In this document: one piece after another, positions 9,201-61,841 of the stretch | Position numbering within the stretch: position 1 is the first letter of the stretch | Layout of the letters: every line of letters starts with the position of its first letter | NCBI RefSeq assembly: GCF_037975245.1 | Contig: NC_092568.1 | Span: 37,908,501 to 37,972,500, forward strand | DNA from: Apostichopus japonicus | Taxonomy: Eukaryota > Echinodermata > Holothuroidea > Aspidochirotida > Stichopodidae | Reading direction: 5' to 3' | DNA length: 64,000 nt | Program-made: the position numbers and the translations under genes | Notes under the pieces: generated by a model | Databases searched by the model: none | What the model saw: only the letters and a program-made list of their open reading frames with translations | Told to the model about the DNA's origin: nothing

Positions 9201-12200
9201 GTTCACTAATTGAGAGAGAGTGGTCTTGTCTGACCCTTATTGAATCCCTCAGAATTATTTCAAGTATTAGAATAATCAGAATAATTTCAAGAATCAGATT
9301 TCAAGAATCATCAAGAAATTACCTTTGGGGAAACTTTCAACAAATGAAAAGCAATATGAGCAAGATAGAATTGAGGTGAAACGGAATTCATTTATCTGTA
9401 TGAGATTAGTATCGGAAAAGGTAGGAAGGAAATGTCTGCTGGATGTTAAGTTAACTGCAAAGTGAAAAGATGTGTTTATCCAAAAAGGAAGATTTATTTG
9501 AAGGGTGACTCACAGGCTGATATCTGTAGTATCCTGTTTAATCGGAAGACTAGCAAAAATAATCAAAGAAACGTCAGGATTTCCTTGAGACATATTCTTA
9601 TCAATTGTAAGTGTTTTGTTTAAGTGTATAACAGAACTTGAAAGCATTTTTGAACTGTCTTGGATTTATTCATGAATGTTCCAGGTGATGAAAATGAGAA
9701 GTAATTGTAAGGCCCCCCCCCCCCCCCGAGATGAAAAGTTTGCAATGAATATAAGGCCTCTGGGTAAAGGATTCATGATACTGCTGTGTAAAGGGATGTT
9801 TGCATTATTGGTGTAACTTTAGAGGTATTATCGATATTACCTGAAGGTCAATTTTGATAGTGGTTGGTGCCATCCATAGCAACCATTCTGTTATTTTCCC
9901 ATATCACCATAGTTTTATGAAGTTACAAAGCTACGGTTTCAAGATTCATGTTTCAGCCGCTGTCTAGAAATGATGAGAGTTAGATTTAAAGTTGTCAATT
10001 TGGTGGTTAGAAATCTGTGGATTCCATACTAAAACTGTCCTTGAATACTATGGACATCCTTGACGGAATGTCAGCCTGTGTCAATGGGCTCATAGCTTGT
10101 TTTTAGCTTAGTTTAGCTTATTATGATAGCAAGAGGGGTTACAAAGATACTTTTACTCCTTTTTGAAAGTTTAAATAATATCATCCCCAATTCTTCTGAT
10201 TGATTTGTTAGATGAGGTGTTGATGCCTTACTTCCCTGAAGTGTGACAGTTGTAAATGAAATAATCCTTTTTTTAAAACACGAGTGAATTGTTTCCTCTT
10301 ACACACAGCATGTGCAGAATTGAGGGCAGAGCTGGGCAGGAAAGACAGAGAAATGGAGAGCAAAGAACAAGCCAGGGTAAGGAAAACCTGCTCGGTTGAA
10401 TCACTCTTTATTTGTATTCAATGTTTCTGTATAGATTAGAGAATATCGTGTCAAAGGTCAGATGGAGCATCTTGCACCTACCTTTGGTGTACTCCCTTGT
10501 TAATTTTCCCCTCAGCATCATGTCGCACTCCCTTATCTTACTAAACGTTCGTTTACTCTTCAGAGGAGAGGTATACTCCAGAGATTGTCTGCCAGACATG
10601 AGAGAAATCAATTCAGTTTTGTTCATGAGAAAACACATTCCCACATCTCTTGATTCATTTAGAAATACAAATTTGAATGGCAGGATTTGCCATGGGTACA
10701 GTCTGTGTACATGTGGAATGTACAATGGTTTCAGTGCAAGGGCTCAGTGCAAGGGCTCAGTGCAAGGGTCAGTGCAAGGGGTCAGTGCAAGGGCTCAGTG
10801 CAAGGGGTCAGTGCCATCAATATGTGTAACCACTGAGGAAGGTGAATAAACATTTAAATGGGGACGGGTGAACAGCCAGGGGATTTTGGTATTCATTGAA
10901 AGTCCTTGAATGTAAATGATGTGAATGATTTCATCTCATGCCTTGCTTCAATTGTTTGTGGTATACCACTGCTTGGTTATATCTAATGTAATCATTTCAA
11001 GGAGAATTTCAAGGGTAGGGTCCCCTTAAATACAGGTCACTTTCAGAAGAATTTCAGTAGGTATTCTTTTTTCTCTCTTGCAAATCTCTGTCTCCATCTT
11101 TACTACAATTCCCAGATGACTCATTTACAAATGATACATTCTGGTTGAAACATCAAAACATTATTCTCATTTCTTCATGCCAAATAATGAGAGTATCGAC
11201 CTCTCTGAGCTTTTGTCATTTTCCAAACAATTTTACCATCTGTCATTGCTCAAAGCTGTGAATTTTGAACTCTTTGCAATATTCTATACCATGGTATTTG
11301 GCACTTTCCATCAGTTCATATGATATCAAATATTCATAAAGAAGTTAGGAAAGAACAATCAGCAACTTCTCTTATATTAATTTTATGGAAGCAGCTGTTT
11401 GTAATAGAATTAAGATCTCACAAATTTTGTGAAACAGTGATTTCAATCTTCGGAAGTTGTCTAGAAGCATTAGACCAACATTAATTTTGATTGTCAAACT
11501 AGCCTCTGTTGTGACCATTGGTTTTAGTGCTCTGTCCATTTTTGATAGGGAACTGTAGAGTATGTGTGTATATTCATCGAACCAATAGACGTGTTACTTT
11601 GGGCAAATTTGAAATGAAACGTGAACCAGAGGTTTGACATCATACCCGCAGGAATAATATCTTCTCTTCTTCGGCCTAATTGCTCGATTCTGGACTTAAT
11701 TCTCTCAAAACTAATAACAATTTCTTGACTAACATGCCACTATTTCATTCCTAAAATTGATAAAACTCATATTCTTTGTTTCTCGTAATAAATAAAGAGA
11801 AAGTTGAGATCATTTAACTCTGAAATTAGAAAAAAATGTGTGGATTATAATAATTTTAATTCATGTAACTTTCTTGAAAGAAAAAATGGACCCCAAGGGG
11901 GCTGGCAGTAGATATTCAGCTTCAAGTGTCAGCCTTTCAATGGAATAATCCTTCTGCTGTATCAACACAACTCTAAAAACAACTTTTAAATTCTGATCTG
12001 CGGCTAGTCTTTCTGCAGCAAATGATAATGATGCAAACCACAACAATGCAAAAGCTAAAAGCACTGCCAAATAGCTATGTAATATAATAACGATGAATGA
12101 TATTGTAGAGAGGGAACAGTCCAAATATTAGAGAGATTAAATCACGACTGTTGACACTGATTAATGTAGGTGAATACTGCTCTTTAACATAGTAGAGTGT

Positions 12201-13725
12201 AATTGATGTGTTTCATTAAAGACCACAAGATAAGCTGGAGGCGATGAATGTTCATACGAGATATGGAAGGGAGACAAACAACTTGAAATGGTAGGATAGT
12301 AAAAGTGACTGAATTGAAGAAATACGTATCGAGTGGGAAAGTGTGAAGGAGGAGAGAGTTGATAGATGTTTCTGAGGTGGGGGAATGTGTGGAGAGGAGG
12401 AATGTGGGGAGAGGGGGAATGTGGGAAGAGGGGGAATGTGAGGAGAGTGGGATGTGGGGAGAGGGGGGACTGTGGGGAGAGGGGGGACTGTGGGGAGAGG
12501 GGGGACTGTGGGGAGAGGGGGACTGGGGAGGGGGTTGAGGGGGAGAATGTGGGGAGAGAGGGAATGTGGGGAGGGAGAATGTGAGGAGAGGGGGAATGTC
12601 AAACTTGCAAGGGAGAATAGTATGGAAGACTGGGAGGAAACAAAATCTTTGACATAAAAATATAGGAAAACTGTAGAGGACATGCAACTCTCAGGTGGTC
12701 ACATGACCTTCTACATCGAAGACGTTGAAGAAGCTAACCAAATTGCATTCACCAGTTAACAGGCCAAAATTTAACATGTTGAAAAGTTCCAAAATAAGAG
12801 TTGTTCTGGTTCAATATTTATCATTTTCATGTCAAACTGTTCAGCAGATGCATTGGATCCAAGTCCCTAGTAATTATAGATATTTAATTTGGTGTAAATA
12901 GTGAATGTAGTTCCATATTTTTTTGGGTCAGTGTATAGTTTTTACTATGTGGTAGTGGTATGAAGTTTGATATATTAATTTACTTATATTCACTATTTTA
13001 TTTTTTTTGCATCTTTCTCTGCATGTATGTATCTTGTCTATTTATTTGACTATTTGTTTTTGGTAGTTTTAGCAGATTTTTCTTTCTTGTTTCATAGAGA
13101 TCATTTCCAATTGAAATAACTACACTGGTAGGTTAAATTCTCTAAGAATTCTGCAAAACTTCCAACTTTGCTTGGTTTTATATTCTCATAACAATTTTTA
13201 AATTTTTCTTTCTTTCATTAATTTTTTTTTTTGTAGCTTGCTATTTTTCTGGCTTCCTTGCCAAGAGTTTGAAGCATCCACCCCTCCTCTAAAAAACCCT
13301 CAGCACTCCCCTCTCTTAACCGCAGCCTTTAAACGCGTGTTACAAGCAAGTATAAACACAAAATTGTAGATTTGTGTAATATGCAACTAACTGTTATTTA
13401 AATAATTGAAGTTTCTTTCAGAGACACTTTCATTAACAACTAAGTGTCACATAGGAATTGTATTGAGTTTTGTTTACAATCCTTGACTAAGCACTGCATG
13501 TAAAAGTGTATGGAGGCATCCAAGGAGATTTAATACAACAAAGTAAAAGTTTGGTTTAGTAAATATATTCCATACAAAGGCTTAAACAGCCAAAAACCAT
13601 TGACAAAATGTTTTCTTCACAACTAGACAGACAACTGGAAAACAAACTTCTTTCTATCATTTTTCACAACAAAAATCTTGAGGGTCAAGGATCCAGTTAA
13701 TAGTTATATAGCTGTATACTATATA

Positions 13726-16700: not shown

Positions 16701-19700
16701 TTATATCTTTACCTTGTTAGTTGGTAGTGTTTTTTCTCTGCGGTATTTTACCAGTGCAGCGTAGTTGGTCATCTTGTTCCCCACTTTTCTCTCCATTGTT
16801 AACAGGAGGAGGCCATGACAGCTCTACACGACATGGAGGAGAAACAGGAGAGGCAGAGGAAAGAACTGACTTCCACGAAGCAAGACAATGAGACACTTCA
16901 AGCTCAACTCCTGGAACTCAGAGCTATGGTAGGTTTTTATCTATATCTTAAAATGCTATCATCACCTTGTAAAGGATTGGCAAGTACTATCTGTGATGGG
17001 TTGCATTCGAAAGTGTTCTAATGCATTTAATATAGGCAGGCTTGATTCTTAGAGTAACAGCTGTAGTATGTTAAGTATTTTACTGTCATCTCTTGAACTT
17101 GTTCGAATCCAAAATACTTGCAGAGGTTGGTTCCAGAGGGGAACTGTGTCAAGAACTATCTATGAACTGTGAATCCTTAAATTCTGGTTGATGCCAGCCA
17201 GTCCCACAGAGATATGATGAATGGTTCATTGTCAAAGGTGGAACGGTATGAAAACATGAAAACCTATGAATCCATAAGACTTGCTCTTCAAAGTTGGGTA
17301 AAGAGGTAGGTTCCAGAGGGGAACTGTGTCAAGAACTATCTATTAACTGTGAATCCATAAATTCTGGTTGATGCCAGTCCCACAGAGAGGTGATGAATGG
17401 TTCCATGTCAAAGGTGAAACAGTATGAAAACATGAAAACCTATGAATCCATAAGACTTGCTCTTCTAATTGTTGGGTTAAGAGGTAGGTCCCAGAGGGGA
17501 ACTGTGTCAAGAACTATCTATTAACTGTGAATCCTTAAATTCTGGTTGATGCCAGTCCCACAGAGAGGTGATGAATGGTTCCGTGTCAAAGGTGAAACAA
17601 TATGAAATCATGAAAACCAATATATCCATAAAACTTGCGCTTCTAATAGTTTGGTAAAGAGGTTTGATGGCCAACAGGTGCAAAGTACCTTTCGAAAAGT
17701 TACATTCGTAGCCTGTGGTACAAATGGATATGCATGCGTAGAGTATTACCTGCAAGCACTTAATTACGCAAATGTAGTAATTTTTGGATGATCATTACTT
17801 CATGCAAATTAGTTTATGCAAAGTAATGAATTTTAGAGGAGTATAATGTTAAATTAGATGTCTTATTAGCTTTTGAAATTGGTCCTGCATTCCAAAGAAA
17901 TCTTTTTGAGTAAACTTTAACATTTTTGCTTTAAACTGACTTCCAATTTTCTTTTCCCTATCAGATTGCTAGTGGCAAAATTGACACAAGTTTATCAGAT
18001 GATGACAAGCTCAAAACAGGAAACTTACCAACCTCTCCAGTTGGTGGTCCTCCACCGCCACCCACTGGTGGGCCAATACCTCCACCTCCACCTCCGCCCA
18101 TGATAGGAGGAGGCCCTCCACCACCTCCTCCTCCAGGAATGGGTGGGCCACCACCACCTCCAAGTGAGTTGGTTCAAATGTTTATGGTAGCCAGAATACA
18201 TCTGAGAGGAATTAGTACTGTCCATCTTATTCAGTTCTTACATAGATGAATGTAATTTCTATCAGAGAATGTAAATCTGAATGAAACATCTCTAACAATG
18301 CATAAAGGGAACAGGGACTAATGGTCTTTATTAAGTTTTGTGAAGCAGTATTGAAGATTCTTAAGTTTCTCTCTTATAATTACCATATGGTATCTTGTGT
18401 ACAAAACTGATATGCATATTTGCACTTCTGTAGCAATTTGATCATTTTGCATAAGACTTTCGCAATGCTATACAGGATTAATTATTCTGTGAGGAATGGA
18501 ATTGCTTGAAGTTATTATAATTATTTGCAAATTTATCAAACTTAAATATACCTCTAAATTATCCTTTTACAACTTCTTAAATATATAACTTATGACATGT
18601 ATAATTACATATATCACATATATTACATATAATTACATATATTATTACATATATAACTTATAACATAGCATACAGATGGTTAAAATGATTGCTTTGTCTT
18701 CCTTCTTTTCTAGTGCCTGGAATGGTAGGTGTAGCAAAGAAGAGGAAACCTCTGCCCAAGCCATCCAATCCTCTCAAGTCTTTCAACTGGTCCAAACTCC
18801 CCGATAAAGATCTTCCGGGCACTGTATGGTTGGACATTGATGAAACAAAGGTACAAAATACTCAACTTTTAAAACTAATGTTTCCGATTCAGTGACATCT
18901 CTTCGTAATATACTTTACCCAAAATCACCGGTATTTCTTTTTTATCCAATTTGGGTCTGCTAATGGACAAAATCATTTTCTGTTTCTGTGCAGACGATTA
19001 AACTCCTAGACTTTGGCGACTTTGACAAAAACTTCTCAGCCTACCAGAAGACGAGAACGGACGAAAGCGACGACGGATACGGAAGTTTCAAGCAGCAAAA
19101 ACCGAAAGAACTCTCAGTCATTGACGGCAGGAGGGCACAGAACTGTAACATTCTGCTCTCAAAGATGAAAGTTACAAATGATGAGATAACAAAGGCAGTG
19201 ATGACAATGGACACAGCTGAAAGTATTCCAAAAGATATGTTAGAACAGGTCAGTCTCTCTACAACTATAATCAATGATACTACTATCTCAACTATATATT
19301 GGATGTATTGATCCTGCATGTTTACCCATCATGCACCTGTACAAATGTAACCAGCTCAGCTGATAGTATTCCAAAAGATATGTTAGAACAGGTCAGTCTC
19401 TCTACAACTATAATCAATGATACTAGTATCTCAACTGTATATTGGATGTATTGATCCTGCATGTTTACCCATCATGTCCCTGTACAAATGTAACCAGCTC
19501 AGCTGAGAGTATTCCAAAAGACATGTTAGAACAGATCAGTCTCTCTACAACTATAATCAATGATACTACTATCTCAACTATATATTGGATGTATTGATCC
19601 TGCATGTTTACCCATCATGCACCTGTACAAATGTAACCAGCTCAGCTGATAGTATTCCAAAAGATATGTTAGAACAGGTCAGTCTCTCTACAACTATAAT

Positions 19701-22700
19701 CAATGATACTGGTATCTCAACTTTATATTGGATATATTGATCCTGCATGTTTACCCATCACGCACCTGTACAAATGTAACCAGCTCAGCTGAAAGTATTC
19801 CAAAAGACATGTTAGAACAGGTCAGTCTCTCTACAACTATAAGCAATGATACTGGTATCTCAACTATATATTGGATATATTGATCCTGCATGTTTACCCA
19901 TCACGCACCTGTACAAATGTAACCAGCTCAGCTGAAAGTATTCCAAAAGACATGTTAGAACAGGTCAGTCTCTCTACAACTATAAGCAATGATACTGGTA
20001 TCTCATCTATATATTTGATTTATTGATCCTGCGTGTTTACCCATCATGCACCTGTGCACATGCAAGCAGCTCAGCTGAAAGTATTCCAAAGACGTGTTAG
20101 AACAGGTCAGTCTCTCTACAAATATAAGCAATGATACTGGTATCTCAACTATATATTGGATGTATTGATTCTGCATGTTTACCCATCATGCACCTGTGCA
20201 TGTTTAACCAGCTCAGCTAAAATGAGTGAGCAGTATTTGTAGGACTTTTGTAGGACTAATGTTTGAATGTATCTGTTCTTAACAGATCTTGAAGTATGTG
20301 CCCACTCCCGAAGAGGTCAGTCTTTTGAGTGAGCACGCAGCAGAGAAGGATAACATGGCCGCAGCTGATAGGTTTATGTTTGACCTAAGCAGGTGAGTTT
20401 GTGAACTGGACTCTTTGACTATTGATCGTTAATTTTCCAAATGAAGCGTGTTAATAGTGTAGTTGAATGAGTGTCGAAACAGCTTTTGAGAAATTAATTT
20501 GACTTTTGTTTGAAACTTATCTTTCCAAAACAGTCAATAAATAGGCTGTCATTATCGAAGAAGAAAAAGTGAAACTAATTTTCATCAATGAAGCAGGTGA
20601 AATAAAACTTGATCATCAATGAAAAGGAGATTCCATGAAGGGTGCTCATGATTAGTAACATATAAAGAGGTGTTGTTGAATATGTATCAGTGAACTAAAG
20701 AATCAGTGTTACTTGTTCAGTATTTTAGTTGATATTATTCTTTCAATAAGCGGTGCCTTTTCGTTACTGAATTCATATTGTTACCATTTTCATTTGTACT
20801 TTTATTGCAGAATCGTGCACTTCAAACAAAGATTAAACTGTCTCTATTTCAAAAAGAAATTCCAGGAAAGAATGTCAGAATGCAAACCTAAAGTAGAGGG
20901 TAAGTGTCCTTGGTTTTGACAAACTGGAACGTTTACTGTGCCAGCAAATTTCCATTTCTTTGAGCATGCTCTTAAGCCACCACTCCTTGAGTACTTGGGC
21001 CACTTCTTAAGCCACTCCTGTACACAAACATCATTATATATGGAGGAACAAAAAAAAATACACATTTTACTTTAAGTGTATCTTTGTGACTATTTGAAAT
21101 TTGGATGCAAGTTTTAGAAATGAGAACATTTTAGAGAACACAGGTTTTGCTTTGAATCAAGACATTTAACGGTTTTGTTCTGCCTTTCACGCCCTCAGCT
21201 GTAATGAAGGCATGCAGAGAAATTCAAACAAGTAAGAAGCTAAAGAAACTTCTGGAGATCATTCTAGTCTTAGGAAACTACATGAACAGAGGAGCAAGAG
21301 GGAATGCAGCTGGCTTCAGGATTAGCAGTCTGAACAAGATAGTTGATACAAAGTCCAGTCTTAGTAGGAATGTTACCATGCTGCATTACTTACTGGAAAT
21401 GACAGAGAAGAAGGTACGTGTGGGTTCCCTCTCACCCTACCCTCCCCTCCACCTTCCCTCTCACCCCACCCTTCAGGGTTAGCAGTCTGAACAAGATAGG
21501 TGATACAAAGTCCAGTATTAGTAGGAATGTTACCTTGCTGCATTACTTACTGGAAATGACAGAGAAGAGGTACATGTGGGTTACCTCTCACCTAAGCAAT
21601 GCCACATGGGAATGTTTCCTTTCCATCCTTTTACCAGCCAAAGTGCAGCTTAGATAATTTGTAAAGTTTGGTTTTCTCTTTTCAGTTTCCAGATGTTTTT
21701 AAATTAGATGAAGAATTAGCAACCATACCAGCAGCAGCCAGAGTCAAGTAAGTAGCACACTGAGTGGGTACATGCCCCTAGAGTAAGTAGCACACTATAT
21801 GGGTAAATGCCCATAGAGAAAGTAGCACATTGTATGGGTACATACCCATAGAGTAAGTAGCACATGGGTACATACCCATAGAGTAAGTAGCACATCATAT
21901 AGGTACATACCCATAGAGTAAGTAGCACACTATATGGGTACATGCCCATAGAGTAAATAGCACATTGTATGGGTACATACCCATAGAGTAAGTAGCACAT
22001 CATATAGGTACATACCCATAGAGTAAGTAGCACACTATATGGGTACATGCCCATAGAGTAAATAGCACATTGTATGGGTACATGCCCATATAGTAAGAAG
22101 CACACTATATGGGTACATGCCCATAGAGTAAATAGCACATTGTATGGGTACATACCCATAGAGTAAGTAGCACATCATATAGGTACATACCCATAGAGTA
22201 AGTAGCACACTATATGGGTACATGCCCATAGAGTAAATAGCACATTGTATGGGTACATACCCATAGAGTAAGTAGCACATCATATAGGTACATACCCATA
22301 GAGTAAGTAGCACACTATACGGGTACATGCCCATAGAGTAAATAGCACATTGTATGGGTACATACCCATAGAGTAAGTAGCACATCATATAAGTACATAC
22401 CCATAGAGTATTAGTAGCACACTCTATGGGTGGATTCCCATAGAGTGAGTAGCTCACTGAATGTGTACATTACCGTTGAGTATATAGCACACTATATGGG
22501 TACATATCCGCCGAGAAAGTAGCACATTGTATGGGTACACACTGGTCGAGTAAATATCACACTGAATGGATAGAACACCATGAAGTGTAGAGGTGGCAAG
22601 GGATAGTGAATCATTCTAAAGAAGCTTGGCAGCAAAGTGAGCATGTTACCTGGCAATCACAATTATAGACTTGACATTGTACAAACTTCGCATTAATATT

Positions 22701-25700
22701 TTCTTATGACTGTTGAAATTGTCTATTTCTATGAATCTTTCTTGCAGTCTTGGGGAACTTGAAAAGGACATGGCCGTCTTGCGAAATGGTCTCACTGAAC
22801 TTGAAAATGTAAGTGTAAAATAGGAAAAGGGCCTTTTACTGCAGAGTAGCATAAGTAGCATAAGAGATGACTAAATTACATCACAGAGGACCGAGTCACT
22901 TTAGTGAGAACATGAATACTCTGTACAGGAGCATAATATGTTTATAATCACATTACATTCCAAACTCTGAAGTCCATCTTGTGTTTGAAATAGAATTGAT
23001 CAGAAACCAATAATTATATAGCATGACTTGATTGAGATTGATCATAACAGATTGCACCAGTTGAGACAATGTTTTCTATATTGTATTTTCCATGTCCAGC
23101 TTCAAAGCACTCACACTGACAGTATAAGCAGTATGAATATTTATGTTTCTGTCATACTGTTCATACTGTCAGTGTTGGTGCTTTGAAGCATGATGCAAGA
23201 GGACAGTATGGAGTGGGTTATTAGCATTGGAAAATTGTCCCAACTAGTTGTAGGTTGATAGTTGATCTCAAAATTTCCAAGAACTGTAATTGCTACATAT
23301 TTTGACCTTGACAACGTTTGAATGATGAAGTTCGACGTGTGTGTATTCATTTCCTATTATGTTAGCTTTACACTATTGATTAAGACAGTGTAACACCTGT
23401 ATTCATTTCCTATTATGTTAGCTTTACACTATTGATTAAGACAGTGTAACACCTGTATTCATTTCCTATTATGTTAGCTTTACACTATTAATTAAGACTG
23501 TGTAACACCTGTATTAATTTCCTATTATGTTAGCTTTACACTATTGATTAAGACAGTGTAACACCTGTATTCATTTCCTATTATGTTAGCTTTACACTAT
23601 TGATTAAGACAGTGTAACACCTGTATTCATTTCCTATTATGTTAGCTTTACACTATTGATTAAGACAGTGTTACAACTGATATGGAATTTTCAACTACCC
23701 ATGTGTGGAGACATATATTTTTGTGAATAAAGCTGTAAGAAACGTTTTCATTCCAAAACTTATTTTGAACGGTTGGTGATGGTGATCTGCAAGAGTTATT
23801 TTCCTGAAGAGAAGTTTGCAAAGTTGACAAGAGGTTTAAATGCCTGCTCTCTCTCTATTTCCAAATAGGAACTGACTTTCCAGAAGAGCCGTCCAACTCA
23901 AGACAGAGGGGACAAATTTATTTCTGTGATGGGTGATTTCAAGACAGTTTCCTCAATCAGCTTCAACAAACTCAATGACTTACTATCAGATGCCACAGAA
24001 AGGGTGAGTTATTTGTGTCATTGTGGAACATTAATGTTCGTGAAAAGTCATCCCCTATCCCACCCCCCCCCCACATGAATTCAAATTTTCAATCTTTAAG
24101 ACATATGCCAAATCTCAATCTTCAAAAAGGCTCCAATTTAAAACGAAAATCAAAATTTGTCTGCAAGTCTTGTTATAGAATCTAAGGTTGAATCAAAGTA
24201 TTTGGTATGTGAAGGCTTCCTCAAGAAATTTGCAGCATCCTCACTCACCCTGTTATATGATTGAACCAGTGATAGTAAAGTTAATCAGTTGCTGAAGTTA
24301 GAAGTTTCCTGCCTGATGAAGTTGAAGAACGTCCAACCAATACAAACTGTATCCAGAAACACACTTATTACCTTTATTATCTTTTCTAAGCTATGCTTGG
24401 TTGGAAAACCTTGTTGGGCCTTCTTCACAGCAGTTGTTCAGTTCATGTATATCTTTATTGGTCATGTAGAGAAAAGTCTGTATGTAGGGAGCTGGGAATG
24501 ATTGGACAGCTTAAAATAAGCGTGAGATAAAGGTCTTACTTGAAATGAAAGGGGTTAATAAACTTTCTTAGATTTTGATTTGATTGTAGTGTTAATGATT
24601 AAGTAGGCAGGTGTTAAGGAATGGTGGCATTAAGTCACGTGGCTACTGTCAAAGAGAATTACCAACATGATAGTTTCAAGGTTTGATTAAAATATCAACT
24701 TGCCAAGTTTTTCATGTTGATTGAAGACCTCAAGAGTCATTGAGCAAAGTTTAGGAAATCTTTTTATTTTTAATTTTGTTAATATTAGGAAATTAAGATA
24801 ATTATGATAATTGGGATTAATAGGTAAGATAGGACATTAATAAGAATAGGGGATTGTGTCAAAGACCTTTACTGTAGGTGAAGTTTAGCTTGCTCTGCAT
24901 AGGTTTATTGTAATTTTGGTCAGGTATTATTTTTCAATTCAAGTAAATTTTTTTTTATCTTGCAGTATCAAAAAGTATGCAAACTATATGGGGAAGATCC
25001 TACCAAGGTAACTCTGGAAGAGTTCTTCCAAATCTTTGACCAGTTCATGCAGTCATTTGGAGATGCTAAAGTTGATAATATTAACTTCAGGAAGAAGAAG
25101 GAGGAGGAGGAGAAGAGAGCAAGATTAGAGGCTGAGGTAAGCAAAGAGGGCAACACACTGGTCACAAGGGTGGGGAGAGGGGGAAGGGGGCAGGGAGGAA
25201 GAGGAGGAACTAGGGATGAAATTGTTTGGGATTAGGATTAGTGATATTCTGAAATTATAATCATCAGTATAACTCAAGGTGATGAATGGGGGGGGGGGGG
25301 CTTTGGTGTAAAGGAGCAGTCTCGTGGTTGTATGCTAGAAAAATAATCGTAGGGACATGTCTCAGTAATTTCAATGGTTTTAGTCAGGTCACTTCATGGT
25401 GGAAAAGTTAGGCAAAGAATGAAATTATTACAAGAAATGTTTCCCGAAAGGGGCATCTACTGGTGTTGTGTTCAAGAGATTTTGTGATGCAGTTGACATT
25501 CCAAAAACTCAGTAGTGGTTGCGATCACTGTAATCCCCACACACAGCAATTTATGTTTTGTTGGGAACTGGTTACATCAAAGGCCTTGATTTTCCTGTTT
25601 TTATCACCATATATAAAGCATTATTGTTCATGGAAAACTAGCATAAAAGTATAGTCTTTTTGTCAGAAAAAACAGGAAGTGCTATCTTTCGCTTTTACTA

Positions 25701-26012
25701 GTTCCCTTTGATGAGTTTTTTTTTGCCTTCCCTTTATCTTCGAAACAGAGGTTGGAAAGAGACAAATTAAGGAAAGCAGCTCGCAAGGCCAAATCTGGCA
25801 AGAATGGGGAAGGCGAGTTTGACGATTTGGTCTCAGCGCTGAGGAACGGTGAAGTATTCGGGGAGGACATGGTGAAGATGAAATTAAAGAAAGGAAAGAA
25901 GATATCACTAAATAGTGGATCTGCAGCTTGGAAGAATGGAGAGGATAGGGAGAGAATGGGACGAACAGCAGTGGTTACATCACAGCCAGGGAGAACCACA
26001 GTGGCAATGTAA
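76..26012 (+). CDS. DAAM1: DAAM-family formin, 5'-partial gene, 20 coding exons
   Basis: Formin that nucleates and processively elongates unbranched actin filaments; family members act in the cytoplasm downstream of Dishevelled and Rho in Wnt/planar-polarity signalling. Coding exons: 76-211, 854-1051, 2651-2761, 4871-4974, 6331-6397, 7087-7204, 8803-8985, 10309-10376, 16806-16928, 17965-18163, 18714-18850, 18994-19248, 20286-20392, 20811-20899, 21199-21413, 21686-21747, 22748-22808, 23869-24003, 24966-25136, 25749-26012. Together they give 933 residues and a TAA stop, with compatible phase at every junction. Order: GBD/FH3 armadillo region (about 1-300), coiled coil (about 305-370), proline-rich FH1 (about 395-440), FH2 (about 446-845), DAD (about 865-900). 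Vertebrate DAAM1 is about 1078 residues, so roughly the first 145 are encoded upstream of the window. An invertebrate gene could equal the ancestor of DAAM1 and DAAM2, so the symbol is provisional. Confidence 0.97.
212..853 (+). other. DAAM intron after exon 1
   Basis: AT-rich intron. It holds one G-rich run at about 432-457 (long poly-G followed by GA-punctuated G tracts). No further gene signal seen. Confidence 0.8.
854..1051 (+). CDS. DAAM1: DAAM exon 2: FH3 armadillo helices
   Basis: Acceptor cccttacag, donor GTAATT, phase 0 at both ends, 66 codons. It contains the strongly conserved stretch [19 protein letters not shown] and ends YASERTRFQ, typical of DAAM formins. Confidence 0.97.
1052..2650 (+). 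other. DAAM intron after exon 2
   Basis: AT-rich sequence with homopolymer T runs. Open frames here are short and lack conserved residues. No repeat or gene recognised. Confidence 0.75.
2651..2761 (+). CDS. DAAM1: DAAM exon 3: FH3 segment
   Basis: Acceptor catttcag, donor GTGAGT, 37 codons in phase 0. It encodes [15 protein letters not shown] followed by [12 protein letters not shown], a hallmark of the DAAM/Dia FH3 fold. Confidence 0.96.
2762..4870 (+). other. DAAM intron after exon 3
   Basis: Short direct repeats of TTTGATTTGATT type at about 2865-2935. Otherwise AT-rich unique-looking sequence with no gene signal. Confidence 0.7.
4871..4974 (+). CDS. DAAM1: DAAM exon 4: FH3 segment
   Basis: Acceptor cactctag, donor GTAATG. 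It encodes [20 protein letters not shown] and ends in a split Arg codon (AG/G) completed by the next exon. Confidence 0.96.
4975..6330 (+). other. DAAM intron after exon 4
   Basis: Contains the ATT-microsatellite-linked repeat at 6014-6095 and a G-rich stretch at about 5880-5960. No coding signal beyond short chance frames. Confidence 0.7.
6014..6095. repeat. (ATT)n microsatellite with TATATAGCGC/GCGCTTTACA element
   Basis: An ATT run is followed by CCTTATATAGCGCAAATAC and, about 25 bp later, by AAATGCGCTTTACATGATG. The GCGC-containing halves form a partial inverted pair. Similar short interspersed sequences are common in marine invertebrate genomes; I cannot assign a family from sequence alone. 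Confidence 0.5.
6331..6397 (+). CDS. DAAM1: DAAM exon 5: short FH3 exon
   Basis: 67-bp exon with acceptor tttcacag and donor GTGAGT. The first base completes the split Arg; 22 codons follow, reading [20 protein letters not shown]. It is too short to show up as an open frame of its own but matches DAAM residue by residue. Confidence 0.95.
7087..7204 (+). CDS. DAAM1: DAAM exon 6: end of FH3
   Basis: Acceptor tcgccgcag, donor GTAAGA. It encodes [19 protein letters not shown] and [14 protein letters not shown], ending one base into a Lys codon. Confidence 0.95.
7205..8802 (+). other. DAAM intron after exon 6
   Basis: AT-rich with purine (GAAAA) and T runs, and G-rich GGTGGGGAAGAGGTGGGG at about 8290. 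Nothing else recognised. Confidence 0.7.
8803..8985 (+). CDS. DAAM1: DAAM exon 7: dimerisation helix after FH3
   Basis: Acceptor tttttttcag, donor GTATTT, a weaker donor than its neighbours. The true frame starts with the last two bases of a Lys codon and reads [19 protein letters not shown]. An AUG-initiated open frame seen here in another frame is a shadow. Confidence 0.93.
8986..10308 (+). other. DAAM intron after exon 7
   Basis: Contains a strongly pyrimidine-biased block at 9099-9177, short imperfect TTTCAAGAATCA direct repeats at about 9245-9325, and a poly-C run of about 17 at 9711-9727. No gene signal. Confidence 0.7.
9099..9177. repeat. Polypyrimidine (CT-rich) tract
   Basis: About 80 bases almost entirely C and T, made of irregular CCCTTCC/CCTCCC units. 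Such mirror-like homopyrimidine DNA can adopt triplex (H-DNA) structure; the open frame through it is an artefact of composition. Confidence 0.7.
10309..10376 (+). CDS. DAAM1: DAAM exon 8: start of coiled coil
   Basis: 68-bp exon with acceptor acacacag and donor GTAAGG. It encodes about 23 charged residues ([19 protein letters not shown]...), helical and coiled-coil-like. Identity rests on splice sites, phase and position more than on conserved residues. Confidence 0.88.
10732..10814. repeat. Minisatellite, about 6 units of 14-15 bp
   Basis: Units of the form CAGTGCAAGGG(C/G)T are repeated about six times head-to-tail, with length varying by one G. Low-complexity intronic array. Confidence 0.9.
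12378..12600. repeat. G-rich purine minisatellite (17-19 bp units)
   Basis: Head-to-tail units alternate GGGGAGAGGGGGAATGT and GGGGAGAGGGGGGACTGT types. One strand is almost pure purine with many G4 runs, so quadruplex formation is possible. Long open frames on both strands here follow from the repeat. Confidence 0.9.
13718..13810. repeat. (AT)n / (TATG) microsatellite
   Basis: About 90 bp of TA dinucleotides interrupted by TTTATA and TGTATA. Simple sequence repeat. Confidence 0.95.
16806..16928 (+). CDS. DAAM1: DAAM exon 9: coiled coil before FH1
   Basis: Acceptor gttaacag, donor GTAGGT, 41 codons in phase 0. It encodes a Glu/Gln/Lys-rich helix containing [17 protein letters not shown] and [11 protein letters not shown]. 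It is separated from exon 8 by the largest intron of the gene in this window (6.4 kb). Confidence 0.93.
16929..17964 (+). other. DAAM intron after exon 9
   Basis: Half of this intron is the three-unit ~180-bp array at 17122-17668; the rest is AT-rich with no signal. Confidence 0.75.
17122..17668. repeat. Tandem array, 3 units of about 178-180 bp
   Basis: Three head-to-tail copies marked by CAGAGGGGAACTGTGTCAAG at 17134, 17314 and 17491, each followed by TTCTGGTTGATGCCAG and a CATGAAAACC segment. Copies look more than 90% identical; copy 1 has an extra CCAG. No coding potential is shared by all copies. Confidence 0.92.
17965..18163 (+). CDS. DAAM1: DAAM exon 10: proline-rich FH1 domain
   Basis: Acceptor ctatcag, donor GTGAGT. 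After a Ser/Asp/Lys linker it encodes four Gly-punctuated proline runs of about 5, 7, 7 and 5 residues. FH1 tracts bind profilin-actin and SH3/WW partners. The tract is shorter than in vertebrate DAAM1. The final base starts the Met codon completed in the next exon. Confidence 0.96.
18164..18713 (+). other. DAAM intron after exon 10
   Basis: AT-rich; the 3' part (about 18585-18668) is a degenerate ACATATATTACATATAAT repeat. No gene signal. Confidence 0.75.
18714..18850 (+). CDS. DAAM1: DAAM exon 11: FH1-FH2 junction, lasso of FH2
   Basis: Acceptor cttttctag, donor GTACAA. It encodes [20 protein letters not shown], then [10 protein letters not shown] and [11 protein letters not shown]. The xSFNWxKL motif is the FH2 lasso that wraps the partner subunit of the dimer. 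Confidence 0.97.
18994..19248 (+). CDS. DAAM1: DAAM exon 12: FH2 linker and knob
   Basis: Acceptor ctgtgcag, donor GTCAGT, 85 codons in phase 0. It contains [20 protein letters not shown], the conserved FH2 segment with the Ile implicated in actin binding by comparison with yeast Bni1. The last ~35 bp are copied repeatedly in the following intron. Confidence 0.97.
19214..20219 (+). repeat. 143-bp minisatellite copying the exon 12 / intron boundary
   Basis: CAGCTGA-starting units occur at 19214 (inside exon 12), 19357, 19500, 19643, 19786, 19929 and 20072, exactly 143 bp apart, with a truncated remnant at 20214. Each unit holds ~35 bp of exon 12 3' end, the donor and ~108 bp of intron. Donor GT is intact in copies 2, 4, 5, 6 and 7 and changed to AT in copy 3. 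Copy 7 has a 1-base deletion in the exonic part. Confidence 0.97.
20286..20392 (+). CDS. DAAM1: DAAM exon 13: FH2
   Basis: Acceptor ttcttaacag, donor GTGAGT. It encodes [17 protein letters not shown] and [12 protein letters not shown], ending in a split Arg codon. It lies about 70 bp after the end of the 143-bp repeat array. Confidence 0.96.
20811..20899 (+). CDS. DAAM1: DAAM exon 14: FH2
   Basis: Acceptor tttattgcag, donor GTAAGT. It encodes [20 protein letters not shown], with the conserved LYFKKKF of DAAM FH2, and ends one base into an Ala codon. Confidence 0.96.
21199..21413 (+). CDS. DAAM1: DAAM exon 15: FH2 core with GNYMN motif
   Basis: Acceptor gccctcag, donor GTACGT. It contains the most conserved formin motif, [16 protein letters not shown] then [12 protein letters not shown], in the FH2 post region. 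The 3' ~95 bp plus the donor are duplicated 158 bp downstream (see findings). Confidence 0.97.
21477..21590 (+). pseudogene. Partial duplicate of DAAM exon 15 in the next intron
   Basis: About 93 bp of exon 15 3' sequence plus ~20 bp of its intron is repeated 158 bp downstream at roughly 94% identity. In the matching frame it encodes [20 protein letters not shown] and onward to LEMTEK. It is preceded by a long pyrimidine tract and CTTCAG, and followed by GTACAT, so it has both splice signals. Joined in phase 0 after exon 15 it starts GGT TAG, an immediate stop; after exon 14 it also meets an early TGA. It could be a dead copy or a poison exon. Confidence 0.8.
21686..21747 (+). CDS. DAAM1: DAAM exon 16: FH2
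   Basis: 62-bp exon with acceptor cttttcag and donor GTAAGT. It encodes [20 protein letters not shown] and ends in a split Asn codon. The donor itself is the first unit of a 35-bp tandem array. Confidence 0.95.
21748..22560 (+). repeat. 35-bp tandem array beginning at the exon 16 splice donor
   Basis: About 23 units beginning GTAAGTAGCACA. The first unit begins at the true donor. A 105-bp higher-order period (three variants) is clear between about 21880 and 22400; the end is degenerate. Each unit contains the inverted pair TATGGGTACATACCCATA, and about a dozen units keep GTAAGT. The long minus-strand open frames here arise because 105 is divisible by three. Confidence 0.95.
22748..22808 (+). 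CDS. DAAM1: DAAM exon 17: FH2
   Basis: 61-bp exon with acceptor ttcttgcag and donor GTAAGT. It encodes [20 protein letters not shown], matching the DAAM segment between the post helices. Confidence 0.94.
23100..23188. other. Near-perfect 37-bp intronic hairpin
   Basis: Left arm 23100-23136 (starting CTTCAAAGCACTC) and right arm 23152-23188 (ending GGTGCTTTGAAG) are inverted copies with a 15-nt loop. 33 of 37 positions are Watson-Crick, two are G:U and two are mismatched on the plus-strand transcript. It could be a pre-miRNA-like hairpin or a small MITE remnant. Confidence 0.75.
23345..23680. repeat. 56-bp tandem array, 6 units
   Basis: Units begin ATTCATTTCCTATTATGTTA at 23345, 23401, 23457, 23513, 23569 and 23625. 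They are nearly identical; unit 4 has three substitutions. Each contains TTACACTATT and AGTGTAA as a short inverted pair. No coding capacity. Confidence 0.96.
23869..24003 (+). CDS. DAAM1: DAAM exon 18: FH2 C-terminal helices
   Basis: Acceptor ccaaatag, donor GTGAGT, 45 codons in phase 0. It encodes [20 protein letters not shown] and a following Phe/Ser/Leu-rich helix, as in DAAM. Confidence 0.95.
24004..24965 (+). other. DAAM intron after exon 18
   Basis: AT-rich sequence with a poly-C run near 24062-24071. No repeat or coding signal recognised. Confidence 0.75.
24966..25136 (+). CDS. DAAM1: DAAM exon 19: end of FH2 and basic/acidic helix
   Basis: Acceptor tcttgcag, donor GTAAGC, 57 codons in phase 0. 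It encodes [28 protein letters not shown] and the charged helix [16 protein letters not shown] that leads into the DAD. Confidence 0.96.
25137..25748 (+). other. DAAM intron after exon 19
   Basis: Begins with a GA/GG-rich stretch (25165-25215), then a poly-G run at about 25289. No other signal. Confidence 0.75.
25749..26012 (+). CDS. DAAM1: DAAM exon 20: diaphanous autoregulatory domain and stop
   Basis: Acceptor cgaaacag; 87 codons then TAA at 26010-26012. It contains [16 protein letters not shown] followed by a Lys-rich stretch (KMKLKKGKK), the DAD that binds the N-terminal DID and autoinhibits the formin. The C-terminal 14 residues ([14 protein letters not shown]) differ from vertebrate DAAM tails and lie within unit 1 of the 105-bp array. 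Confidence 0.96.
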   Translation, partial: RLERDKLRKAARKAKSGKNGEGEFDDLVSALRNGEVFGEDMVKMKLKKGKKISLNSGSAAWKNGEDRERMGRTAVVTSQPGRTTVAM

Positions 26013-27236
26013 AAGGTACAAGATACAACGACACTGGGGTATCATGCTTAGTTTAAATATCATTTGTAAAGAGCAGTGGTGATATCACAGCCAGGGAGAA
26101 CCACAGTGGCAATGTAAAAGGTACAAGTTACAACGATACTCGGGTATCATGCTTAGTTTAAATATAATTTGTAAAGAGCAGCGGTGACATCACAGCCAGG
26201 GAGAACCACAGTGGCAATGTAAAAGGCACAAGATACAACGATTCTCGGGTATCATGCTTAGTTTAAATATAATTTATAAAAAGCAGTGGTGACATCACAG
26301 CCAGGGAGAACCATAGTGGCAATGTTAAAGGTACGAGATACAACGATACTCGGGTATCATGCTTAGTTTTAATATAATATTAAAAAAAGCAGTGGTGTCA
26401 TCACAGCCAGGGAGAACCACAGTGGCAATGTAAAAGGTACAAGATACAACGGCACTCTGGTATCATGCTTAGTTTAAATATAATATGAAAAAAAGCAGTG
26501 GTGACATCACAGCCAGGGAGAACCACAGTGGCAATTTAAATAGTACAAGATACAACGACACTCTGGTATCATGCGTAGTTTAAATATAATATGAAAAAAA
26601 GCAGTGGTGACATCACAGCCAGGGAGAACCACAGTGGCAATGTAAAAGGTACAAGATACAATGACACTCTGGTATCATGCTTAGTTTAAATATAACATGA
26701 AAAAAAGCAGTGGTGACATCACAGCCAGGGAGAACCACAGTGGCAATGTGAAAGGTACAAGATACAACGATACTCGGGTATCATGCTTAGTTTAAATATA
26801 ATATGAAAAAAAAAAAACAGTGGTAACATCACAGCCAGGGAGAACCACAGTGGCAATGTAAAAGGTACAAGATACAATGATACTCGGGTATCATGCTTAG
26901 TTTAAATAGAATTTGTAAAGAGCAGTGGTAACATCACAGCCAGGGAGAACCACAGTGGCAATGTAAAAGGTACAAGATACAACGACACTTGGGTATCATA
27001 CTTAGTTTAAATATAATTTGTTAAAAGCAGTGGTGACATCACAGCCAGGGAGAACCACAGTGGCAATGTAAAAGGTACAAGATACAACGACACTCGGGTA
27101 TCATGCTTAGTTTAAATATAATTTGTTAAAAGCAGTGGTGACATCACAGCCAGGGAGAACCACAGTGGCAATGTAAAAGGTACAAGATACAATGACACAC
27201 AGGGATTATGCACAGTTTAAATATAATTTTTAATAT
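25968..27236 (+). repeat. 105-bp array, 12 units, overlapping DAAM C-terminus and 3' region
   Basis: Units start GCAGTGGTNACATCACAGCC at 25968, 26073, 26178, 26283, 26389, 26495, 26601, 26707, 26817, 26922, 27027 and 27132. Period is 105-106 bp (110 where an A run expanded). Unit 1 encodes the last 14 DAAM residues and the stop. Most later units still read the same peptide and TAA. The array continues into what should be the 3' UTR. Confidence 0.97.
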
Positions 27237-33918: not shown

Positions 33919-34663
33919 ACATTAGACTTGGTATTTACTAAATGTCCCATCCAGTAGTGTAAATAATACCAAGTCAAACCTGCACTCAACCACATTAGAC
34001 TTGGTATAACTATTTACTATATATCCCATCCAGTAGGGTAAATAACACCAAGTCAAACCTGCATGCAACCACATTAGACTTGGTATAACTATTTACTATA
34101 TATCCCATCCAGTAGGGTAAATAATACCGAGTCAAACCTGCACGCAACCACATTAGACTTGGTAGTTACTATATGTCCCATCCAGTAAGGTAAATAATAC
34201 CAAGTCAAACCTGCACTCAACCACACTGGACTTTGTATTTAATATCTGTCCCATCCAGTAGAGTAAATAATACCTAGTCAAACCTGCACTCAACCACATT
34301 AGACTTGGTATTTACAATATGTCCCATCCAGTAGGGTAAATAATACCAAGTCAAACCTGCACGCAACCACATTAGACTTGGTAGTTACTATATGTCCCAT
34401 CCAGTAAGGTAAATAATACCAAGTCAAACCTGCATGCAACCACATTAGACTTGGTATAACTATTTACTATATATCCCATCCAGTAGGGTAAATAATACCA
34501 AGTCAAACCTGCACGCAACCACATTAGACTTGGTATAACTATTTACTATATATCCCATCCAGTAAGGTAAATAATACCAAGTCAAACCTGCACTCAACCA
34601 CACTGGACTTTGTATTTAATATCTGTCCCATCCAGTAGAGTAAATAATACCAAGTCAAACCTA
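33919..34663. repeat. 10-unit hairpin-forming tandem array (72-79 bp)
   Basis: Units begin ACATTAGACTTGGTAT (or ACACTGGACTTTGTAT) at 33919, 33992, 34071, 34150, 34223, 34297, 34369, 34442, 34521 and 34600. Two length classes (about 73 and 79 bp, differing by a TAACTA-type insert) recur in order. Most units contain GACTTGGTAT and its inverse ATACCAAGTC, giving a stem-loop per unit. It is intergenic, between DAAM and CCDC97. Confidence 0.95.
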
Positions 34664-38689: not shown

Positions 38690-41600
38690 GTAAGGAAAAT
38701 GATAATTTCGTAAATGTTGAAAACCTGAGCTTGCGCATGCTTTGTGATGCATAAGAAGATCCAAACTTGTTTCTTAATCATGTAGAAATCATACAGTCTC
38801 GACGTTAACCAAACGTAACTAGCGTTACCGAATACTAAGTTCCTGCCATATTAAAACAATACAACTTTTACAAGGGTAGGCCTCTGACCTAAGTTACTTA
38901 CAGTACTGTATAGTTAAGGCTTCATAATTGACGCGCCCCCGTAATTGACGCACCTTCAATTATTACGAGCAACAATACAGCAGGCCACCTAAACTTTTTG
39001 CAGTCAAGCAAAATTACATATTTCATGAGTTTGAATCCATTTCAGCAATTTGCTCACTAAATTTTGGTATTTTTTAAGCTTTTAACACCCTCCCCCCGTT
39101 GTGGGGGCATTTGAAAATCTTACATCCTAAAACTAACCAACATTTCCTCAATATGATAACACTTCTCTCTGGGACCTAACCTGTCTGAGCTTAGAGGCAT
39201 AGAGCATAGCAAACAGCATCTTAAGTCAATGGACGAATGTGTCAATTTAGGGGTATGAAAGAACTTGACACGGCACACATTTTGTGGTCAAATTCTGCTC
39301 AATTGTACGGTGCATAAGCACAGAACCTTAAATATTTTGAGATCATAACATTTCTGAGGAACTATGCACATATGAAAAATACATACAGTTGAGTAATTTG
39401 GATTTTTCCTCGATAGACATCGTTGATCAAATCCTTAAGTGCGTCAATTATGAGCCCACCACGCTATACGTAATAGACCTAGTACTAGTAGTAGTAGAAC
39501 AAGGGACACCGTTAGCAGTTTCAGAAAAACGTTGGATTAGGCCTATCATTCTACTACACTTCTATAGTTAAATACGACCAGACAATACCAGTCAATTGGT
39601 GGACACAGTAACTCTAAGCTAAGGAGGCCAGACATCCCTGAATTCTAGAGAAAGACCCTGGAATAAGATACATACATTCCTGGTTTGAAAGTACCTCCAG
39701 GAATGACCTCAGATATTATGTACTGACTGGGAAATATCTTCAAATTTGTAAAAGGCCCCAAATAATTTAACTTTTATCTCTTTAGCCCCTTGTTCATAGA
39801 GATGGCTAATTTAAGATGTGGTTGTTTACAACCACAAACTACTGTACAGTAAGTTCATACATGACCGCATATAAAGGCAAACCAGATAATTTAATATATA
39901 CTTTCATACCTGAGAAGCATCATGTTGCACTAAGTGATGAACAATGAGACTTTCAGTTACCTTATTGCCATATAGTTATACTTTTTTGGCATTTGAATTT
40001 TTATCATGAAGAAAATACTTGTTTCTGGATGGGCTGTTTTGAAGCTAGTGGACATATCCTTGAAACAAAACACTGATATGTTTTTTTTTATATTTACCAT
40101 CCCTCATTTTAAAGGTTGTGGCCAAGTGATGTCAAAATAGAAGGTGGTTAGGATGGGAGAGGCAGGGGGGGAGTGTGGTTCAACATCAACGTCTGGTCTT
40201 TAGATTTCTTGAAAAAAATATGTTCACCTTATTCTAAGTGTAACATTTTAATAAGAAAAAAATAAATGCATAAAAAAGTGGATAGAAAGAGAAGGAAAGA
40301 CTAAATTAACTTGCTCTACTCAGTTTAGGCAAATGTCACTCACTTTCCAAAGTACATACATACGGTAAGGAAAAATGCTCCATGTAACTTTCCCAATCAT
40401 TTCAGAATTTAGCCAAACATTACATACTGCTCATTAAATCACTCTAAAGGTCAGTCTTTTCCAAAATATGTTGACTTAATTACTTAAAGAAAATACTTAT
40501 GATTACTGTATGAAACCATCTTCTTTGGAGTAACAATTCAGATCAGACTAAAGTTTGAACCTGCAGCTCTGATGTTAGGCATAGGGAATCATGAACTATA
40601 ATGGGATGAGCTGTCAAATACAGGTTTGTCATTAATAAATCTTCAGTAAATTAAAGGTGAAATTTTCATGTAGAAACACACAGTGCTACTTGACAATGAA
40701 ACCAAATATCATATGATGTTCTTCCAGATCATGCGATGAAGTCGAAGTTGAGATTTTTTTGAAAATTTCCATAATGGATTTTTTTTGGGATTACAGTAAG
40801 TAATTTTGAGAAATTGTCAAGGAAAGTGCAATTTTGGAAAGTGAAAGTGCTCTAGTGTGTCTTTTGTTTTTCATTTATTTATTTAATATTATTTATCTTT
40901 GTATCTATTGTATTTTTTCTTTGTAGCCGAAGCATCAGAAAATATAGAACAAAAGGTGGACACAGTCAATACAACTGATGAAGAAGATGAGATGGAAATG
41001 ACATTCCAAGAGATGCTATTGTATATCGCTAACTGTGGTGTTACAATACAGAGTCAACAGATTGGGGACGAGGAAATCTCCATGCAAGACAGAATTCAGA
41101 TTTTAACGGAAACTTTCAGCCAAAAGCCGGTCATCTTTCTTGAAAGATACCATCGTATCCTTCGCTTAGAAGACCTTCCATGTTTCTCACATTTGAGCCA
41201 TATTTATGAAGTGGACTTTTACATGAAAGAGGTCAGGAAAAAGTCTAACACAAGGACATCAAACGTCCAAAGGAAAAACAGGAGATACGAAGCCTTGAAG
41301 AAACTCGAAACCGACGGTGAGTACTTCAGCGACGAGCAGATGCGGTCGAGGGATCCGTTGATGTACGAACATTACATCGGTCAGTATCTAACCGATGAAG
41401 AGAGAGCCAAACTGAGGAAAGAGATAGATCAAACTGATCTAAAACTCTCCACCATACTCACGGAATTTATGGAAGAAGCTGATATCAAGTTACTACAGCA
41501 GCAGCAGAAGGAGGATGAGGAGATGGTTGAAGAGGAAGATGAGGAGGAGGAGGAAGATGAGGAGGAGAGTGAAGAGGAGGAGGAAGAGATGGAACAAGAT

Positions 41601-61300: not shown

Positions 61301-61841
61301 CAAGGGTGTAAAATAGACATAGAAATAGAAAAATAAGCTTGCAATCTGTTGAGTAGTGAAAATACACAGTTAATAAAATGCATTAACTCTGAAAGGGTTC
61401 CTTAAAGCCTAAAATCACAGTTTTGAGGTTTTTTAGTCAGGAAATGATTTTGTATTATATTTCAGTTAAGCTTTAATACACACATACCGTATACTCTAAT
61501 AATGAGCTCTTCTGCATTGAGCTTTGAAGCAGTAAGAATAAAGACACAAACGTTGTCTTGAAATGCTTAAAACAAGAATATGTCTTCAGTTAAGATGTAG
61601 TAAATATATATCAAGATTTTCTTCTTCTGCATAGACCTATAAATCTTTAGGTCAAATTATAACAAAAGAATTTAGGTAATTTTCAACTCCTTTCCTTACC
61701 TGTACAAGCTCTTCTGCGAAATGATTGCAGTTTTTGTGTATTAAGTGGTAGCCGTCACCGGGATATTTCTTGCCGAGACATTCCACAACTTTGGATACAT
61801 CAACTTCTGGCAAGTCTGTTACACCTAGTTCTATTGTCTCC
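58133..61841 (-). CDS. DESI2: DESI2/PPPDE1-type isopeptidase, last two coding exons (5' partial)
   Basis: Minus-strand exons 61841-61700 and 58339-58133 encode the C-terminal ~115 residues. DESI2 is a PPPDE-fold cysteine peptidase described as acting on ubiquitin/SUMO conjugates in the cytoplasm. Its catalytic Cys lies in HKNCNHF, seen here as YHLIHKNCNHFAEELVQ. After the junction comes ILCNKQIPSWINRLA, then RLPFLEKMLPKEWLTP, nearly matching the vertebrate protein, and a diverged acidic/Leu tail ending before TGA at 58135-58133. The catalytic His and the rest of the fold are encoded by exons upstream, beyond the right edge of the window or not found within it. The gene converges with CCDC97. 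Confidence 0.94.
58340..61699 (-). other. DESI2 intron
   Basis: AT-rich. It contains pyrimidine-rich TCCTCTCC repeats near 58720-58785, dense TACTGTA/TACAGTA words at 59200-59275, 60030-60060 and 60580-60680, and a two-copy repeat of ATGACAAACCCATACACAA type near 60800-60875. Open frames here are not supported as exons. Confidence 0.65.
61700..61841 (-). CDS. DESI2: DESI2 exon with catalytic cysteine
   Basis: On the minus strand the acceptor is CATCCACAG and the donor GTAAGG. The first base completes a split codon; 47 codons follow: ETIELGVTDLPEVDVSKVVE, then the KNCNHF active-site motif and EELVQ. The next exon joins in phase 0. Confidence 0.95.

Follow-up and report, generated by a model that had tools for sequence, protein, structure and literature searches.

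In Apostichopus japonicus (Holothuroidea), the 3' end of an FH2-coding exon of a DAAM-type formin gene is repeated in tandem together with its splice donor, and the extra copies fill most of the intron that follows. The array lies within a stretch of 64,000 nucleotides (nt) of forward strand (NCBI RefSeq assembly GCF_037975245.1, contig NC_092568.1, positions 37,908,501 to 37,972,500), which we refer to as the window and from whose first letter positions are counted. We consider it likely that this array is a so-called mirage, a minisatellite that arose when a tandem duplication ran across an exon end and its donor, and that it is near-neutral and tolerated. Similar arrays recur at other exons of the same gene and elsewhere in the genome, where donors carry no excess of them and splice acceptors are avoided.

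The array at the FH2 exon end

The window opens inside the gene, and exons were mapped from 18714 on (Table 1). The joined ten-exon translation matches the FH2 profile from position 2 to 371 of 372 (E = 3.4e-108), its best solved relative is DAAM1 (2j1d, E = 6.3e-156), and a piece of the gene further upstream matches the diaphanous GTPase-binding domain (E = 2.9e-8). On these similarities, the gene is a DAAM formin. The exon concerned, whose in-frame translation starts with TIKLLDF, ends at the donor CAG/GTCAGT (19249) and is flanked by an upstream intron of 143 bp and a downstream intron of 1,037 bp.

Tandem Repeats Finder (TRF) describes the array with a period of 143, 7.1 copies, 94% matches and a score of 1738, and together with an alignment of the copies this bears out the claim of an earlier note on this DNA that the exon end and donor had been multiplied about sevenfold into the intron. 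The unit consists of 35 bp of FH2 exon followed by 108 bp of intron that begin with the donor. Its length, given in that note as exactly 143 bp, is so for copies 1-6; copy 7 has lost one A (142 bp) and is trailed by the remnant CAGCTAAA. The alignment agrees with the note that AACAG/GTCAGT is kept in five of the six extra copies and that copy 3 carries AT in place of GT (19535). It was also right that reading past the true donor meets a stop, a TGA that precedes the first of these decoy donors, so that use of any decoy would add a premature stop codon. The motif CAGCT, common to exon and intron as the note had observed, opens the unit inside the exon and is found again at each junction and where the array ends on the right. 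This is consistent with the microhomology-mediated duplication proposed there, of which it is no proof.

The GT-bearing copies read AACAG/GTCAGT and thus present an AG/GT junction, such that they could serve as stepping stones for recursive splicing. A recursive splice site would carry a pyrimidine tract and AG directly before the donor, and what precedes the AG of the decoys is ATGTTAGAACAG, with no pyrimidine tract. Moreover, the intron measures just 1,037 bp. We rejected this candidate as extremely unlikely.

The exon part of the copies includes the residues PKDMLEQ, common to DAAM1, which indicates that the exon was the source of the copies. Variation among the seven copies is spread over the unit, with 24 of 143 columns variable: 4 of 35 in the exon part and 20 of 108 in the intron part (Fisher p = 0.44). 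Coding constraint on the extra exon pieces was hence rejected, none being detectable among the seven copies in this comparison. Divergence is highest in copies 6 and 7 at the intron-side edge (9-15 differences), while copy 1, in the exon, differs from copies 2-5 at 3-6 positions. When the genome (671,581,487 bases on 35 contigs) was searched with the 143-bp unit, seven matches were found among the best candidates scored, all of them inside the array and the weakest at E = 3e-50, that is, at one copy of the locus.

An assembler might have expanded a single copy into this array, and one lancelet mirage is described as misassembled in a draft genome (PMC3087553; here and below, statements from cited papers draw on excerpts of them). 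In this case, however, the mean read of the A. japonicus high-fidelity (HiFi) assembly is 14.7 kb (PMC10344927). Because such reads far exceed an array of 1 kb, and because the copies differ at 24 columns, an artefact is very unlikely.

The array is not a singular event: three further exon ends in the same gene are arrayed (Table 1), as are 8 of 200 sampled donors elsewhere. The second array consists of two copies of a 157-bp unit with 94% identity over 123 bp, and its decoy GT is retained as judged by eye. The exon that ends at 21413 and its intronic copy (21475-21573) differ at 5 of 96 bases, and every difference changes a residue. DAAM1 (2j1d) shares the decoy's residue at two of these positions (SSI, TLLH) and the exon's at two more (ISS, final K), which leaves neither sequence clearly the older. 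In the third array, of 35-bp units, GT is retained in 21 of 23 extra copies, again judged by eye.

The fourth array, of 105-bp units, spans a stop codon rather than a donor. The best DAAM1 alignment stops short of the tail encoded in its first unit, and the array may therefore have supplied coding sequence to the C-terminal tail of the gene. In total, arrays lie over three of the nine donors in the mapped half of DAAM (those of 143, 157 and 35 bp) and over its stop codon. A 56-bp array at 23342-23679 lies within an intron, and TRF finds further arrays upstream at 10731-10814, 12379-12599 and 17122-17663.

Table 1. Features of the DAAM-type gene and its arrays, in window positions.
Feature	Position	Strand	Description
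C-terminal half of DAAM-type gene	18714-26012	+	ten exons, 497 codons, one frame
FH2-coding exon	18994-19248	+	last 35 bp (from 19214) form the exon part of the 143-bp unit; true donor GT at 19249-19250
Tandem array, 143-bp unit	19214-20222	+	exon end, donor and most of intron; 7 copies and a short remnant; TRF, copy alignment
First in-frame stop on read-through	19309-19311	+	TGA, before first decoy
Six decoy donors	19392-20107	+	GT at 19392, 19678, 19821, 19964 and 20106; AT at 19535
Next FH2 exon	20286-20392	+	acceptor CTTAACAG/ATC
Second array, 157-bp unit x2	21314-21592	+	last ~100 bp of exon 21199-21413, donor and intron; self-comparison
Third array, 35-bp unit x~23.6	21747-22569	+	begins at donor GTAAGT of exon 21686-21747
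Fourth array, 105-bp unit x12	25967-27233	+	copy 1 is about the last 15 codons and stop (ends 26012) of terminal exon 25749-26012

Past the DAAM gene, the window contains a 73-bp x9.9 array (33919-34662, TRF) and genes for a CCDC97-like protein (40887-41693, + strand; PF09747, E = 8.8e-28) and a PPPDE peptidase (61655-61858, - strand; PF05903, E = 1.7e-14).

Arrays at exon ends across the genome

The survey comprised 200 exons in two sets. Set 1 holds 93 exons, made up of all 70 Myosin_head matches listed and 23 of 25 FH2 matches (the two in DAAM were excluded), and set 2 holds the best 107 of 126 kinesin matches. Because the profile searches of the genome score part of the candidates (65 of 186 for Myosin_head, 48 of 48 for FH2 and 122 of 202 for kinesin), the sample represents the better matches. 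Each match was treated as an exon whose ends were predicted by splice-site scores, using a rough donor matrix. Arrays with a period of 25-500 were called by TRF and by self-comparison with the Basic Local Alignment Search Tool, in flanks limited to 600 or 700 bp. In the resulting statistics, loci that belong to the same gene are not independent. Nine of the 70 arrays are runs of units shorter than 25 bp and were removed, which weakened the results and left their direction unchanged.

Arrays take in 8 of 200 donors and 3 of 200 acceptors, both in a reading by eye and in a strict recount by script. The two counts share seven donor cases, all beyond doubt (loci L016, L074, L075, L076, L101, L108 and L109). 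In addition, L088, a degenerate copy of an exon end and donor, was counted by eye and is absent from the strict script, while L065, whose array begins 2 bp inside the intron at 73% identity, is counted by the strict script only and is doubtful. Two loci were dropped on reading, because correcting the boundary places the start of their arrays beyond the donor (L047 and L096). Among the clear cases, the terminal 89 bp of a myosin exon recur with their donor four times (L076), and a 48-bp kinesin exon end also recurs four times (L108). Over seven of ten arrays where the script found decoys, 34 of 41 decoys keep the splice signal.

By script, and with the short-unit runs still included, arrays cover 10.2% of flank bases in set 1, with 6 of 93 donors and 1 of 93 acceptors arrayed, and 6.6% in set 2, with 5 of 107 donors and 2 of 107 acceptors. 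A forecast made before set 2, that donors would exceed acceptors and would not exceed background, held in direction; after correction, set 2 has 3 (strict) or 4 (by eye) donors against 2 acceptors, too few for significance alone.

Over the whole sample, arrays cover 16,687 of 224,667 flank bases, or 7.4% (8.4% with the nine short-unit runs included). Relative to this intron background, arrays are rarer at donors (one-sided p = 0.035 for depletion) and at acceptors (p = 1.6e-4), and with the short-unit runs included these values become 0.011 and 2.6e-5, respectively. Since donors lie in arrays less often than intron bases do, there is no sign of a mutational hot spot, for example one of transcription-linked breaks, at which donors would duplicate more than other DNA. 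Such a hot spot would fit the three arrayed donors out of nine in the mapped half of DAAM and the one array that begins at GT itself, and selection against arrays in coding sequence could mask it in the survey. Nevertheless, given that the 200-exon sample contains no excess, we rejected it as quite improbable.

The two sides of the exon differ in how closely arrays approach them. Cover amounts to 6.5% at 7-60 nt after donors and to 2.3% in the last 60 nt before acceptors, a difference reversed in 0.9% of resamples (bootstrap over 143 loci); at 60-200 nt it is 10.2% on the donor side and 4.2% on the acceptor side, with 0.25% of resamples reversed. Part of this contrast is ordinary constraint, because the pyrimidine tract lies on the acceptor side.

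Individual loci add further observations. At L053 (401-775), an acceptor-side array holds three copies, with 98% matches, of a myosin exon start (about 70 bp) and its acceptor. Before a kinesin exon at L124 (403-617, sense strand) lies an acceptor array of 42-bp units, most of which have a TACTAAC-like branch point, a pyrimidine tract and CAG, such that complete acceptors are repeated. A myosin exon at L012 is followed, about 40 bp past its predicted donor, by a perfect run of the pentamer TCCTC (948-1619, sense strand) that extends over 670 bp or more and continues past the end of the retrieved sequence.

The extra donors could alternatively regulate DAAM, if transcripts spliced at a decoy included the TGA at 19309 and were destroyed by nonsense-mediated decay, with copy number setting the level. 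Five of the six decoys keep GT, and an in-frame stop precedes the first downstream donor copy in all ten arrays considered (three in DAAM and seven elsewhere, with L065 and L088 excluded). For a random draw from sampled introns, the chance of ten such stops is about 0.04, but this value is too low, because in 3 of the 10 arrays the donor itself supplies the stop (GTAAG in the right frame, stop at +1). Furthermore, the one decoy of L101 has lost its GT, no constraint was detected on the 143-bp copies, and the same structures are present at unrelated genes. Taken together, these observations make a regulatory role improbable.

Choice among repeated donors

If the array is a mirage, the first tandem duplication would have happened to take in the exon end and its donor, probably by way of microhomology, and later copies would have been gained by unequal exchange or possibly slippage. 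Because the extra copies lie downstream of the original, the exon's own donor would stay nearest its acceptor. With a long downstream intron, the spliceosome is expected to pair sites across the exon and to pick the upstream one of identical donors; copy 1 would then be the one used in messenger RNA, the decoys would be ignored, and the array would be close to neutral. A duplicated acceptor, unlike a duplicated donor, would place its decoy upstream. An upstream preference at both donors and acceptors would hence allow donor arrays to be tolerated while acceptor arrays are purged, which matches the survey.

This account agrees with minigene data of Carranza et al., in which the upstream of two identical donors is used exclusively under exon definition, whereas between competing acceptors the upstream preference persists and is reduced under exon definition (PMC9225289). 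Intron definition gives way to exon definition at roughly 250 nt, and when all alternative donors are taken together, unmatched for strength, about 60% of events favor the downstream one (PMC9225289). With its short upstream and long downstream intron, the exon at 18994-19248 belongs to the class for which that study reports a stronger upstream-donor preference.

Several points weigh against the account. At position +3 the donor GTCAGT carries a C, a departure from consensus. If the extra copies were removed, the intron after 19248 would measure about 180 bp, below the limit of about 250 nt, and so the downstream donor might have been favored at the time of the first duplication. The cross-exon donor rule derives from human data (PMC9225289), and the splicing pattern we favor is deduced from the genome. 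The excess of 8 arrayed donors over 3 acceptors is not significant (p = 0.11; the uncorrected script count of 11 to 3 gives p = 0.029). Lastly, the rate of three in nine donors in DAAM exceeds the sampled rate (p = 0.004), a post hoc comparison in a window chosen for its array.

The short introns raise a further possibility, doubtful as it is: donor arrays may protect themselves, each copy shifting the intron closer to exon definition, under which the first donor prevails. The three arrayed DAAM introns would measure about 180, 115 and 213 bp without their extra copies and measure 1,037, 272 and 1,000 bp with them. All three thus fall below about 250 nt in the one state and above it in the other, so that expansion itself may protect the first donor. 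Among the other introns in the mapped half of DAAM, one of six is below 250 bp, and the contrast with the arrayed introns is post hoc and tiny. If true, expansion would be favored once a first duplication had occurred, and copy number would set splicing fidelity.

Comparison with known systems

By their anatomy, the echinoderm arrays are mirage-type repeats: head-to-tail units of minisatellite size that span the exon boundary and keep most splice signals. We found this kind of repeat described only in lancelets, and it is now present in another phylum with an estimate of its frequency. Our literature search returned no report of exon-boundary minisatellites in echinoderms, which, as it covered open-licence papers only, is weak evidence of absence. 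About 1 in 25 sampled donors is arrayed here, while the lancelet papers, in the excerpts used, name a handful of genes; at such a frequency in an echinoderm, arrays may be widespread among invertebrate deuterostomes whose introns are rich in repeats. Each array amounts to an experiment set up by nature, as the spliceosome has to choose by position among identical donors with near-identical surroundings. Arrays also provide sequence from which new introns and exons can form, and they can mislead gene prediction.

In lancelets (amphioxus), mirages are tandem duplications of exon-intron boundaries in Adh3, where they were first described, globin (BflGb6 and BflGb9), troponin C and PGBD5, with units of 10-72 bp in Adh3 and 150-160 bp in the globins; in the excerpted text they are reported not to disturb splicing, and edge copies in BflGb6 are reported to escape homogenization (PMC3087553, PMC3902484). 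The A. japonicus arrays resemble them in having minisatellite-like copies across the boundary at either exon end, in their comparable unit lengths, and in that many but not all copies keep AG/GT (as at five of six extra copies of the 143-bp array). They differ in their echinoderm host, in the presence of four arrays in one gene, and in that their frequency is given over sampled exons; all of this is read from sequence alone. A cephalochordate host for the A. japonicus arrays was rejected, because the 16,099-bp mitochondrial contig of the genome, judged by eye against COX1 conservation, translates best with AAA as Asn and AGA as Ser, as in the echinoderm code. Its gene order, also read by eye, is COX1-ND4L-COX2-ATP8-ATP6-COX3-ND3-ND4-ND5-CYTB-tRNA-Phe, an echinoderm arrangement.

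The model of Rogers, in which introns are gained via tandem duplication of exon segments bearing AGGT (PMC3087553), likewise has a segment with splice signals duplicated in tandem. In A. japonicus, however, the extra copies sit in the intron, and we claim no new intron position. Ordinary intronic minisatellites share the unit lengths seen here, and about 7% of the sampled intron flanks lie in tandem arrays. What sets the 143-bp unit apart from them is that it takes in coding sequence and a splice site.

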